Shown here: piece after piece, positions 574 through 5,207 of the stretch
Position numbering within the stretch: position 1 is the stretch's first letter
Layout of the letters: every line of letters starts with the position of its first letter
Source: Halorussus salinus
GTDB lineage: Archaea; Halobacteriota; Halobacteria; Halobacteriales; Haladaptataceae
Reading direction: 5' to 3'
Assembly (NCBI RefSeq): GCF_004765815.2
Contig: NZ_SBIS02000011.1
Coordinates: forward strand, 248,001 to 312,000
Length of the DNA stretch: 64,000 nucleotides
The notes under the pieces: generated by a model
The model's database searches: none
What the model saw: the letters and a program-made list of their open reading frames with translations, nothing else
Told to the model about the DNA's origin: nothing
Made by a program: the position numbers and the translations under genes

Positions 574-1356
574 TTACTTTACTGCGGTGTGGGCGGTGTC
601 TACATACGCGTCCCATTTTCGAGCACTACCAGTAATGCCGACGTTGAACTCGTTAGCTCCGGGGAGTCCCCAGCTCACACTCCAATTAGACGGTGCGCAG
701 AAGGGGTCCCAAGTGTGAATGAATTGACCGTAAATGGTAGTATCGGCCCCGTGTTCATCATCTCGCGCGTCCACTTCACATTCAATGAAGCCATTTTCCG
801 GCGTATACGAAGCGACTTGGGTTCCTGTCCTGAGTTTGGCATAGTAACCGTGTACAGTCGGCTTCTTGTCGGCAATAAGCCCCTTAGAACCGCTCCGGGC
901 ACCATCAACATTTCGATAAATATCCTCCGAGAATGAGATCGCAGCACCGTCGTAAGGCCCATGACAATCAAGGCCGGTCGCAGATGCGAGATCCCAGTTG
1001 AAAACGAAATGTTGACGACCATCATTATTGTCGTTACCGACGGAGTATGCTCCGAGACTGATAGTTGAGTCAGGATCGTTGTCGGGGTCGGCGAATCGCT
1101 TCTGAGTCGATACGTCGCCGTCAGACATTTTATTGATCGTCTTGGATTTACGGGAGAATTGTGTCGTGTTATAATTGTAGTTGATTCCGTGTTGGTCACA
1201 GAGCTTGTTTGCTTGCTCGGTCTTTCCGTTTTGGAGAAGCCGTTTCAGGACATCATACACGCCCTTTTCGGACGAGGCTGAAACAGTTGACGTGCTAAGA
1301 GCGCTGATTGTGAGTCCGGTACCGCCAATCGATTTTATGAATCTTCTACGATTCAT
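574..1356 (-). CDS. Tat-exported hypothetical protein, AT-rich
   Basis: A 260-residue protein that I do not recognise. It starts MNRRRFIKSIGGTGL, a twin-arginine signal with RRRF followed by a short hydrophobic stretch ending near SASS, so export in folded form is likely. No lipobox is visible. The mature part is polar, with about four cysteines (CDQHG, LDCHG, ECEVD, FCAPSN) that could form disulfides outside the cell, and ends AYVDTAHTAVK. A TATA-like stretch around 1380-1390 lies about 27 nt before ATG 1356, supporting a leaderless start. Codon use is clearly more AT-rich than the surrounding chromosome, suggesting recent acquisition. It is divergent from the lipoprotein gene at 1471. Confidence 0.8.
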   Translation of the reverse strand: MNRRRFIKSIGGTGLTISALSTSTVSASSEKGVYDVLKRLLQNGKTEQANKLCDQHGINYNYNTTQFSRKSKTINKMSDGDVSTQKRFADPDNDPDSTISLGAYSVGNDNNDGRQHFVFNWDLASATGLDCHGPYDGAAISFSEDIYRNVDGARSGSKGLIADKKPTVHGYYAKLRTGTQVASYTPENGFIECEVDARDDEHGADTTIYGQFIHTWDPFCAPSNWSVSWGLPGANEFNVGITGSARKWDAYVDTAHTAVK

Positions 1357-1470: not shown

Positions 1471-1908
1471 ATGGATCGAAGAACAGTCGTTCGTCTATCA
1501 GGAGTCGGAACTATGACGTGTCTCACGGGTTGTAGTTCATTCTTCAAAGATAATAGAGCAGAACCTAAATTAGAGTCAACGTTTACTTGGAGCGGCGCAC
1601 AGTGCGGCGGGAGTGAGCCGAATACACAGGCAGACTGGAGTGGATCCGGCGTGAAGATTACCGGCACTGCCGCACTCCCGAAAGGATGCTATGAGACAGC
1701 CATTGAATCGCACGGACCTAGTGACGAATCTACTGCAACTATAGAGGCCAAATTCGAGCAGAACTCAGAGGGAAAACACTGCGTTGACTGTGACTCAGCA
1801 GTTTCTTATCAAATAGTAATAGATTTTATTAACTCATCTATTTCTTCTATAAATATTATCCATAAGACACCTCTTAAAGAGGAGGTAGTCGCGACCCATT
1901 CGAGATAG
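1471..1908 (+). CDS. Small lipoprotein, hypothetical
   Basis: A 145-residue protein. The N-terminus MDRRTVVRLSGVGTM carries twin arginines, and a lipobox LTGC places the lipid-modified Cys at residue 21, so it is probably a Tat-exported lipoprotein on the cell surface. The mature region has paired cysteines (QCGG, GCYET, HCVDCDS) and a C-terminal beta-like segment rich in Ile and Ser. No family is recognised. Like its divergent neighbour at 574-1356 it is AT-rich, and the two may have arrived together. The leaderless TATA box at 1441-1448 supports the start. Confidence 0.75.
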   Translation: MDRRTVVRLSGVGTMTCLTGCSSFFKDNRAEPKLESTFTWSGAQCGGSEPNTQADWSGSGVKITGTAALPKGCYETAIESHGPSDESTATIEAKFEQNSEGKHCVDCDSAVSYQIVIDFINSSISSINIIHKTPLKEEVVATHSR

Positions 1909-2083: not shown

Positions 2084-2833
2084 CTACAGTCCGACCCAGA
2101 CGGTCCGCACGTCGTCGTCGGGGAAGTGCCAGCGTTGCTCGGGACGGCCGTGTTTCTCGCGGAGTTCGATTCGGGCGTCGAACAGCGAGGAGAGCCGCCG
2201 GACCGGCTTGGAGTCGTCGGCGACCGGCAGGTGGTAGTGGGCCATCCCATCGACGCCGCGGACGTGGTCGCCGACCGCGCCGACGAACCGCTCGACCGCC
2301 GCGGTGTCGTGGCGGTTCAGGAGATACGAGAGGGTGAACACCGAGATGCGGAGTTCGGCGGGTTCGAACCCTGACCGGCCGATTTTCGCGGTCGTGATGG
2401 CGTCGCAGAGCGCGCCCCGGAACTCGCCGAGGTCGCGCGCGGCCGCCGACGAGTCGGTTTCGACCGCCGAATCGGAGTCGGACGCCGAATCGGTCTCGAA
2501 CGCCGCGGCGTCGGTCGCCGAGGAGTCGGCCTCGGCGGGCGTCGCGGCGCTCGCGGTCCGCGCCCCGATATCGTATTCGGCGAAGTGGACTCGGTGGTCG
2601 GTCGCGCGAACGTCGCCGGGCAGGAGGTCGGGCGCGTCCTCGCGGCCGTGGTCGGTCAGCCCGAGGAGTCGCGTCCGGGACTCCTCGGGTGACCCGAGGA
2701 GCTTCCGGGTCGCGCGCTGGGAGACCTCCTCGCGGACGTTGCCGGTCACGAGCAGGTTACAGCCGTTTCGTTTCATCCGTCTGAGTTTTCGGCGGATGTG
2801 CGCTATCGGCACGTCGCTCGAATCGTCGCTCAT
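2084..2833 (-). CDS. Haloarchaeal hypothetical protein, DUF7504/RecA-like type (tentative)
   Basis: A 249-residue protein. The N-terminal half (IAHIRRKLRRMKRNGCNLLVTGNV) resembles haloarchaeal proteins with a degenerate RecA/KaiC-like core in which the Walker A loop has been lost. A low-complexity Ser/Asp/Ala linker occupies roughly residues 95-135. The C-terminal half (ELRISVFTLSYLLNRHD ... VDGMAHYHLPV) is the better-conserved-looking part and ends RTVWVGL. Proteins of this type often sit near signalling genes, but no function is established. AT-rich sequence near 2855-2870 lies about 27 nt before ATG 2833. The family assignment is from memory and is uncertain. Confidence 0.7.
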   Translation of the reverse strand: MSDDSSDVPIAHIRRKLRRMKRNGCNLLVTGNVREEVSQRATRKLLGSPEESRTRLLGLTDHGREDAPDLLPGDVRATDHRVHFAEYDIGARTASAATPAEADSSATDAAAFETDSASDSDSAVETDSSAAARDLGEFRGALCDAITTAKIGRSGFEPAELRISVFTLSYLLNRHDTAAVERFVGAVGDHVRGVDGMAHYHLPVADDSKPVRRLSSLFDARIELREKHGRPEQRWHFPDDDVRTVWVGL

Positions 2834-3024
2834 ATTGGCTATAGACGACTATGTATGATTTAAAATTTGTTACTCTACCTGTAGGTATAATAGCACTAAC
2901 ACGGCGTTTCGAGCGCCGACCGCGACGAGAAGTCGCGTGAACGAGAAACAGCTAACAACTTGTATTTAGTTCTAGGTATCAAATTTAAGGAAAGTATTTT
3001 TTACTTGGTTGTCCGAGTACGGGT

Positions 3025-3159
3025 ATGCTCAGAGGCAAAATCGAGAGGTGGCTAAAGCGGCATCCGTGGGCGATTGGGGCGATATTTTCTGCGGGAACAT
3101 ATCTGACAGACCCTATCGCGCCACTGAGTTGTGGTATTTGTACTACTCCCGGACCTTAA
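3025..3159 (+). CDS. 44-residue hydrophobic peptide facing the CHAT protease gene
   Basis: The frame reads MLRGKIERWLKRHPWAIG and continues through a short hydrophobic helix (AIFSAGTYLTD) to a tail with two cysteines (SCGIC) and a C-terminal Gly-Pro. The layout is a basic amphipathic N-terminus, HPWAIGAIF, then one membrane-sized segment. It resembles the very short haloarchaeal peptides grouped as DUF7503-like, but that is my recollection and needs checking. The AT-rich sequence at about 2985-3003 could hold its promoter. Its stop codon overlaps that of the convergent CHAT gene by 4 nt (3156-3159). Both the peptide gene and the 3' part of the protease gene lie in one AT-rich block, suggesting a functional pair. 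Confidence 0.6.
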   Translation: MLRGKIERWLKRHPWAIGAIFSAGTYLTDPIAPLSCGICTTPGP

Positions 3160-5207
3160 ATATCCTCCCCGGTGATTTCGTCAGTCCAACAGATTTCACC
3201 GTCGATTTGGACGGGGCTTGTCTGATCGTCAAAGTACTCATTAAGAGCCTCAATATTGACCGTTTCTTGGACAAATGAGGAATTAAGAGAAGAGACTGCC
3301 TCCCTTCCGAGTTTTATATTAGTAAGTGAACCTAAAGGAAGACTCAACGAAGGATACGGGTCAAGTTCCAACGAAATCTGTCCTTTCTCGCTGGAATCAG
3401 CTGTAATAAGGCTAGGCGTACCACACTTCGGCTGGACTAAATCAGTACTACCATCGCCGACAACAACATACTGACGGTCAAACGTACTTACATCAGTCAC
3501 CACCGACAAGGCACTCTGCATCGAGAACCCGTGGTTCAGCAAGCGCGCCAACTCCTTGCCCACGTCCGTCGCGGGGTCGTTGCCCACCTTGGTCAGCGTG
3601 ACGACGCCGACCTGACTGCCCTTCTCGACCAGCGTCTCGCCCTGCTCGTAGGACCGACAGCCGTTGAGGATGAAGCCGCGGACGCCGGACGTTTCGAGGT
3701 CCGCTACGTCGAGCATCCCGTCGGCACACTCGATGCCCTCGTCGGTGACGTGGCCGATGTAGTGCAGGAAGTCCGTGCCGGATTCCAGCAGGTCCCGTAG
3801 CTCCTCGGTCGTCAGGTCGTTGTGGAGCGACACGTCGAAGTCGTAGAGGTCCCGCGTGCCGTAGATGTCGCCGACCACGTCCTCCTCGCGCATGCGCTCG
3901 TCGTTGCACACCACGTCCACCGAGATGTGGTGTTTCGGCGTCGCGTCGAGGCGACGCTTCAGCGCCTCGGGCGTCGCCTTGCTCGCGCCGATGGGCATCT
4001 CGTCGCCGACCCAGACGTGTTCGATGGTGTCGGCCGGGTCGGGCTGAATCACGTCGCTCACGGGAGCCTCGCCGTCGTCGGCCGAGCGGTAGAACGCCTC
4101 CAACTCGCTCGGCTCCGGCTCGACCACCGACGGGTCGGGCTGGTCGGGACACCTGACGAACGCGAGTTCGTCCGCGGCGAACGGGAGGACCGCGACGTTC
4201 TCGTGGGTCGGCGACACGTCCATCGTGACCTTCCACTGCGGGAGGTGGGGTTCGACCACCTCGAAGGGAACGTCGAGATACCGGCGGAGTTGTTCGGCCA
4301 GCGGCTCGTCGTACAGCGACTCGAAGTCGAGGTCAACGTCGGGTTCGAGTCGCTTTCGCTCCCGCAGGTCCACCTCGTAGTAGCCCTCGGTCCGCGTCAC
4401 GCAGTCGAGGAAGAACACCTGCTGGAGGACGCGCCGGACTCCCGCTTCGAGTCCGCCGGGCGCGTCGAGCGAGTGGCTGAACTCGTCGGTGAGCAGGCGC
4501 GGGTCGTCGCCCGGCACCACGCTCGCGCCGAGGTAGAACGCCAGCGGCGCGACCGCGTAGATTGCCTCGCGCTCGTCGGGAACCTCGATTTTGACCCCCG
4601 TTTCGGGCCGCTCGATGTCCCCCTCGACGCGGAACTCCTCGCCGGGTTCGAGCAACGGCGGGTGGCCGCGCAACGTGGGGAACGACCGCTCGCAGGTCGT
4701 CGTCTTGAGCGCCGACCCGAGGAGGGACACGGCGTCCATCAGCGCCCCGGTGTCGTCGGGAACCGTAATCGTCCCCGCCGGAGTCTGGTGGAGCGAGCGC
4801 GCGCCGACCTCGACGGTGGTCTCGTCGCCGAACGAGAGTTCGACCGCTTCGGTGCTTCCCGAGATGGCGACCTCGCTCTCGACCGCGAGGTACACCTTCA
4901 TCTGCGTGTTGGCGAGTTCGAGGTTGTACGCGTCGGCCGGGAGGTCGAGTTCGGACCCGCCGCTGGACTGCCCGACCATCTCGCCCGCGTCGTCTCTGAC
5001 GTACACGTCGAGACCCTTCGTGGTCCGGAGCGAGTCCGTCCGGACGGACACCGCGGTATCGACCGGGAAGTAGAACGCGTCCGTGTCCGCCACCTCCGGC
5101 GAGACGGCCGAGGAGGCGTGCAGGTCGAACTGCGTGCGCTCGATGGGGTCCGTGGCGCGGACGCCGTCGGGTTCGACGAGAGCAGTAAACTCGGGATTCA
5201 TTGACAC
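3156..5207 (-). CDS. CHAT-domain (caspase-like) protease
   Basis: A 683-residue protein from GTG 5207, or 681 from ATG 5201; a TATA-like element at 5227-5235 fits either. The first ~400 residues are beta-rich with no recognised domain. The C-terminal part is a CHAT peptidase domain: FLHYIGH supplies the catalytic His (about residue 484 counted from ATG 5201) and ILNGCRSYEQG supplies the catalytic Cys (about residue 515). CHAT proteases, relatives of caspases and separase, act in bacterial gasdermin and type III CRISPR-linked cell death. The role of haloarchaeal members is unknown. The last ~120 residues lie in visibly AT-rich DNA (3156 to about 3520), while the rest is GC-rich, so the tail may be a replaced module. 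Confidence 0.85.
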   Translation of the reverse strand: MSMNPEFTALVEPDGVRATDPIERTQFDLHASSAVSPEVADTDAFYFPVDTAVSVRTDSLRTTKGLDVYVRDDAGEMVGQSSGGSELDLPADAYNLELANTQMKVYLAVESEVAISGSTEAVELSFGDETTVEVGARSLHQTPAGTITVPDDTGALMDAVSLLGSALKTTTCERSFPTLRGHPPLLEPGEEFRVEGDIERPETGVKIEVPDEREAIYAVAPLAFYLGASVVPGDDPRLLTDEFSHSLDAPGGLEAGVRRVLQQVFFLDCVTRTEGYYEVDLRERKRLEPDVDLDFESLYDEPLAEQLRRYLDVPFEVVEPHLPQWKVTMDVSPTHENVAVLPFAADELAFVRCPDQPDPSVVEPEPSELEAFYRSADDGEAPVSDVIQPDPADTIEHVWVGDEMPIGASKATPEALKRRLDATPKHHISVDVVCNDERMREEDVVGDIYGTRDLYDFDVSLHNDLTTEELRDLLESGTDFLHYIGHVTDEGIECADGMLDVADLETSGVRGFILNGCRSYEQGETLVEKGSQVGVVTLTKVGNDPATDVGKELARLLNHGFSMQSALSVVTDVSTFDRQYVVVGDGSTDLVQPKCGTPSLITADSSEKGQISLELDPYPSLSLPLGSLTNIKLGREAVSSLNSSFVQETVNIEALNEYFDDQTSPVQIDGEICWTDEITGEDI

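Follow-up and report, generated by a model that had tools for sequence, protein, structure and literature searches.

In the window (the whole stretch of 64,000 nucleotides that was analysed), the gene of a CHAT-domain protease (5201 to 3156) and that of a 44-residue peptide (3025 to 3159) lie tail-to-tail, and the same pairing was found across the Halobacteria. The best-supported claim is a minimal one, namely that the two products form a cognate pair, with both variable C-termini encoded in a single exchangeable cassette. Beyond this, we tentatively propose, as a reading that falls a little short of even likelihood, that this widespread haloarchaeal two-gene module of protease and cognate peptide may be a ligand–receptor pair, with the cassette specifying a polymorphic signal. 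The locus contains the following features:

3156..5201, minus strand: gene of the CHAT-domain (caspase-fold) protease, 681 aa; ATG at 5201, stop codon at 3156-3158 (AlphaFold2 model and Foldseek)
3750..3752, minus strand: codon of the catalytic His484 (HYIGH motif), invariant in 81 of 81 relatives
3657..3659, minus strand: codon of the catalytic Cys515 (NGCRSY motif), invariant in 81 of 81 relatives
3159..3431, minus strand: hypervariable, AT-rich CHAT tail, residues 591-681, a predicted small beta domain (model, GC content, orthologue identity)
3025..3159, plus strand: gene of the 44-aa peptide, a divergent DUF7503 relative ending in -TTPGP and convergent with CHAT (ORF, Pfam, conservation)
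3061..3114, plus strand: peptide region with the HP motif and a short hydrophobic stretch, in a signal-peptide-like position (motif alignment)
3133..3156, plus strand: last 8 peptide codons, a variable C-tail with a conserved Gly-Pro end (alignment, codon divergence)
3156..3159, no strand: TTAA, in which both stop codons overlap; the first 170 pairs included 56 with the same offset
3133..3431, no strand: putative exchangeable specificity cassette of ~300 bp, comprising the peptide C-tail and the CHAT tail; its extent is based on that in Halorubrum and two further genera
2860..3024, plus strand: AT-rich region 5' of the peptide, a probable promoter (sequence)
2084..2833, minus strand: DUF7504 gene, a frequent neighbour of the CHAT/peptide pair (Pfam PF24336, 1.8e-47)

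The pairing was assessed on 208 CHAT genes of haloarchaea, all distinct and complete at the 3' end, 191 of which were faced by a convergent peptide gene of the DUF7503-like or the repeat type, with 176 of these 191 peptides ending in Gly-Pro. At all 33 loci retrieved by way of DUF7503 or the window peptide, a CHAT gene adjoined and ran towards the peptide. Of 292 genomes at class level, 252 had DUF7503 and 271 had CHAT; none of the CHAT-negative genomes listed had a DUF7503 match over the cut-off (one had a match at 0.009), and in these 292 genomes there was essentially no peptide in the absence of CHAT. In six of six relatives of the Halorussus clade, the peptide frame was conserved next to the CHAT orthologue, every time with the -GP end and the same stop overlap. 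The initial annotation had suggested that the peptide may be a toxic partner, inhibitor or substrate of the protease, and had named a frame not conserved beside CHAT in relatives, or a tail kept without the peptide, as observations that would speak against it; both were tested, neither was the case, and that the peptide serves the protease as a dedicated partner is supported. The module occurs in most Halobacteria, including Haloferax volcanii, where DUF7503 matched over the cut-off, which makes direct testing possible.

The initial peptide search covered convergent ORFs only, while a later profile scan covered both strands of all loci and detected no same-strand partner close to any peptide-less CHAT gene. 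Such genes were found in tandem or singly (L043, L082, L084, L194 and L199), and included tandem copies of Haladaptatus (L082, L084 and L199). Behind several of them lay a gene that begins MQNVSAAGLGIGP..PPRIMGVLNVSEESPYDPS and seemingly encodes a dihydropteroate-synthase-like protein. At three further loci (L014, L019 and L025), CHAT genes near DUF7503 were apparently frameshifted or weakly matching.

The AlphaFold2 model of the protease (pLDDT 89.8, pTM 0.91) displayed the caspase-like fold of CHAT and clan CD proteases, and Foldseek matched it to gingipain R (RgpB, 4.0e-7), separase (1.1e-6) and SAVED-CHAT (2.1e-6), as well as to TPR-CHAT. The positions of His484 and Cys515 had been counted correctly before from the ATG at 5201, and the two residues form the catalytic dyad of this class, invariant among the 81 diverse relatives. 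Since the score against the Pfam CHAT profile (11.2 bits) fell below the curated cut-off of 24, the window protein is placed as a remote CHAT member by fold and dyad only. A PDB sequence search yielded no useful relative among solved chains, while 15 matches to the protein were found within the same genome. Outside the Halobacteria there were only weak relatives (family f25; genomes G354, G363, G372 and G381), which aligned without most of the tail. The AT-rich end of the gene, also noted in the initial annotation, was borne out, with a GC content of 0.668 in the body compared to 0.444 in the last 270 bp and 0.458 in the last 360 bp. One 60-aa block of the tail was 23-37% identical to orthologues, compared to mostly 65-98% for blocks of the body.

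Judged by its locus position and motif, both shared with DUF7503 (PF24335, a Pfam family with its function undescribed), the window peptide (MLRGKIERWLKRHPWAIGAIFSAGTYLTDPIAPLSCGICTTPGP) is a divergent relative of that family: it faces a CHAT gene, carries the HP..G..F motif and ends in Gly-Pro. Its score of 16.4 bits is, however, below the cut-off of 27, and by Pfam's rule it is no member. Among 182 aligned peptides, the Pro of the motif was constant, Phe stood at +8 in 176 and Gly at +5 in 165, and most ended in Gly-Pro, with 32 residues from the HP motif to the peptide end in 140. The uncharged run after HP[RK] comprised 13 residues in 157 peptides, and a motif [AVSTLI]x[AGS] was found at HP+20/+22 in 162, where a leader cleavage site would be expected, the hydrophobic segment thus leading into a signal-peptidase-like [AV]xA motif; the clade of the window itself has no AxA motif, but CxxC and acidic residues instead. 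The arrangement found in most peptides is read here as a putative export leader, which would leave a short C-terminal product. In Halorubrum, divergence at codon positions 1, 2 and 3 was 0.05, 0.01 and 0.18 in the peptide N-part, and 0, 0 and 0.71 in the final Gly-Pro codons; because divergence is concentrated at third positions, the peptide is under selection as a protein, and conservation together with this codon pattern ruled out a chance ORF. A PDB search with the peptide profile gave a weak best match (E 0.035) to residues 15-42 of an AA10A chain, perhaps its leader, and literature searches on DUF7503, and on 'CHAT domain' in haloarchaea, returned no papers.

Some loci deviated from the common peptide form. 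One CHAT gene (L154, in genome G062) was accompanied by two identical tandem 44-aa peptides, at 1352-1483 and ~140 bp away. The peptides of L211, L212, L215, L233 and L236, mainly from one family (f7), ended in TID instead of GP. Convergent ORFs at L224 and L078 had no usual motif and still ended in SGP or PGP, and may be further divergent partners.

The variable parts of the two genes are contiguous, because the genes converge. Within genera, CHAT bodies were 85-89% and peptide N-parts 86-95% identical, compared to 44-63% for the last ~90 CHAT residues, and the last 8 peptide residues varied. The CHAT tail was AT-richer than the body at 99% of 185 loci (mean GC 0.522 compared to 0.653). One genome per species was sampled, and the variation described is that between species. 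Among 36 Halorubrum loci, mean amino acid identity was 0.853 for the body, 0.440 for the tail, 0.954 for the peptide N-part and 0.558 for its last 8 residues. Nucleotide identity was ~0.9 in the body, dropped to 0.40-0.64 between about -270 and +30, counted from the stop of CHAT, and was 0.89-0.93 in the peptide N-part, giving one low-identity island along the locus in addition to a milder dip near -1000, in the linker. Tail distance hardly tracked body distance (r 0.134). The same island was present in genus g21, while genus g38 displayed a milder dip (tail identity 0.631), with a tail that follows the body (r 0.743).

Silent sites in the Halorubrum island were 2-3 times more diverged than in the flanks. 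Divergence at fourfold-degenerate sites was mostly 0.19-0.40 in the body, up to 0.45-0.52 at the edge and 0.68-0.73 in the tail, and third positions of the last 8 peptide codons diverged by 0.70 compared to 0.18 in the N-part. Relaxed constraint alone leaves silent divergence unraised and does not account for this. A possible explanation is that old alleles have been maintained and exchanged by recombination, which would raise silent divergence, though saturation and the lower GC content of the tail may contribute. The ~300-bp AT-rich island is allele-like, and we infer that it is an exchangeable cassette.

The initial annotation had further suggested that the tail and the peptide may be exchanged together between strains, and co-segregation of the two ends was observed in three genera (p=0.0004-0.02), which supports their acting as one block. 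With body and peptide N-part controlled, the partial correlation between tail and C-tail distances was 0.222 in Halorubrum (p=0.0004), 0.545 in g21 (p=0.0005) and 0.270 in g38 (p=0.022), as assessed by matrix permutation, by which shared ancestry is not fully removed. Halorubrum loci shared 75% of the C-tail with the partner nearest in tail, compared to 56% at random. In the family-wide set, the peptide co-varied with CHAT residues 526-606 and with the tail beyond the rest of the protein (tail partial correlation 0.227, p 0.002), the co-variation being strongest at 526-606, just after the catalytic Cys, as well as present in the tail. The two halves travel together, which physical linkage explains as well as contact does.

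A different peptide form was found in the Haloplanus-like genus g56, where 3 of 12 species carried the leader form and 9 a hydrophilic, leaderless form, in which a short N-part precedes a 13-aa unit (e.g. YTADGNGGGISGP) present in 2 to >10 copies, the last copy being the end of the protein, -SGP. This repeat form, also present in the named Haloplanus records L114 and L132, faced the same CHAT gene at L158, L160, L164, L168, L169, L171, L114, L132 and nine of L253-L264 (L254, which belongs to these nine, has part of its sequence masked with N). The leader was lost in Haloplanus, and CHAT and its tail were little changed; in g56, tail identity was 0.74 across forms, 0.695 within the leader form and 0.81 within the repeat form. 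It is thus the Gly-Pro-ended unit, and not the hydrophobic part, that has been kept and multiplied, and the Gly-Pro-terminated tail appears to be the conserved functional part of the peptide. Ribosome stalling at Gly-Pro-stop, as in 2A-like sequences, was disfavoured, as the Haloplanus arrays hold many internal SGP units.

In the proposed mechanism, the last ~8-13 residues of the peptide, ending in Gly-Pro, would be the ligand, and the hypervariable C-terminal domain of CHAT would bind it as the specificity-determining receptor. Export of the short peptide would, in most species, be the task of the leader HP[RK]..GVLF..LLLLSQAG..AA, and proteolysis by CHAT would be switched by the peptide of its own allele; the purpose may be kin recognition or density sensing, with cell death as a possible output. 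Because the genes lie tail-to-tail, both specificity segments fall in one ~300-bp cassette with conserved arms, so that matching pairs could be exchanged in a single recombination event, and a suggested reason for the convergent order is that co-adapted C-termini thereby stay within a single recombination unit. In its most specific form, the module would serve pheromone-like polymorphic self-recognition in archaea, with a caspase-like protease as receptor of a secreted Gly-Pro-ended peptide and the tail-to-tail order holding the ligand part and its matching receptor part together in one exchangeable cassette, which we consider possible but doubtful. Several observations argue against the proposed mechanism: conservation of the leader exceeds what a generic signal peptide requires, the AxA motif is absent from the clade of the window, and the dip in g38, where the tail follows the body, is mild. 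If true, this would be a previously unrecognised peptide-recognition (self or signal) system in archaea; our literature search found no peptide signalling system described for them. Density signalling does exist in haloarchaea, with the signal molecules behind their density-dependent behaviour largely unidentified (PMC12240190).

The closest working analogies are peptide pherotype loci. As at these loci, a hypervariable block spans the putative signal and receptor segments between conserved flanks, though the candidate receptor is a CHAT protease and not an HTH-type regulator or a histidine kinase. In the agr groups of Staphylococcus, polymorphism extends across the signal gene and the receptor and defines specificity alleles. 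It likewise covers signal and receptor in comQXP of Bacillus, again with specificity alleles (PMC4408185). Both differ from the present locus in their histidine kinase receptor, signal-modifying enzyme and co-directional genes, none of which occurs here. The Rgg/SHP pairs of streptococci resemble it in the small hydrophobic precursor gene beside the receptor gene, in the C-terminus of the precursor being the active part, in the multiple paralogous pairs that the genomes of some strains carry and, in group III, in the convergent gene order (PMC3679016). Rgg is, however, a transcriptional regulator, and the system is bacterial and has no Gly-Pro terminus. With its different receptor class, the CHAT/peptide module belongs to neither the Rgg/SHP nor the comQXP family.

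The Haloplanus repeats have no export leader, as would be expected of an intracellular ligand or substrate more than of a pheromone, and their multiplied C-terminal unit resembles a multi-site substrate. The C-tail could sit in, or be cut by, the CHAT active site as an intracellular substrate or pseudosubstrate that holds the protease off or serves as a titratable multi-site substrate, and the hypervariability could stem from an arms race against viruses or viral inhibitors. The co-variation near the catalytic Cys as well as in the tail, and the invariance of His and Cys in 81 sequences, also favour this reading, which we nevertheless judge unlikely: the signal-like leader of most peptides should carry the C-tail out of the cytoplasm, and neither IMG/VR nor PADLOC provided an independent link to virus conflict.

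In the cell-death model of the initial annotation, CHAT would release or activate a membrane peptide that is toxic. This model draws on the short hydrophobic segment of most peptides and on the established role of CHAT-fold proteases in bacterial immunity, as in type III-E Craspase (PMC9729208), and bacterial gasdermin–protease pairs likewise place a protease gene beside a possible target gene. As the annotation had already remarked, the partner is no gasdermin: it has 44 aa, and the Pfam scan gave no gasdermin match. Because the hydrophobic segment is dispensable, being absent in 9 of the 12 g56 species, gasdermin-like toxicity is less favoured, and a gasdermin or pore-former was rejected as the main reading. 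The uncharged run of ~13 residues is also short for a pore or anchor, the combination of a most constrained terminal Gly-Pro and a most variable tail is unlike a membrane toxin, and convergent genes are not co-transcribed, all of which makes the model improbable. Craspase TPR-CHAT/Csx29 and SAVED-CHAT (PDB 7zoq, 8tl0) share the CHAT catalytic fold with its His and Cys, whereas no CRISPR, TPR or SAVED parts were seen here and the partner is a short peptide. If the peptide were a secreted antimicrobial and CHAT the enzyme that confers immunity to it or matures it, this would explain the leader, the short variable product and the matched polymorphic partner, as in bacteriocin/immunity pairs. The product would, however, have 8-10 residues that are small and for the most part polar, conservation of the CHAT body with its invariant catalytic residues goes beyond the needs of immunity, and no transporter or modification gene was among the most recurrent neighbours of the loci; we regard such a pair as highly improbable.

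The 150 bp upstream of the peptide had a mean GC content of 0.413 (185 loci). Of 131 loci, 68 had a DUF7504 gene cluster nearby; its commonest place was immediately upstream of CHAT in the same orientation, or else on the far side of the peptide, where it lies in the window. A HalX response-regulator cluster was near 22. A virus origin was rejected, as IMG/VR contained no relative of CHAT, and so was a known defence system, as PADLOC gave no match. Two AT-richer ORFs without Pfam match were found in the window at 574-1356 (minus strand) and 1471-1908 (plus strand), one of the pair having a twin-arginine-like start (MNRRRFIKSIGG) and one a lipobox-like start (MDRRTVVRLSGVGTMTCLTGC).
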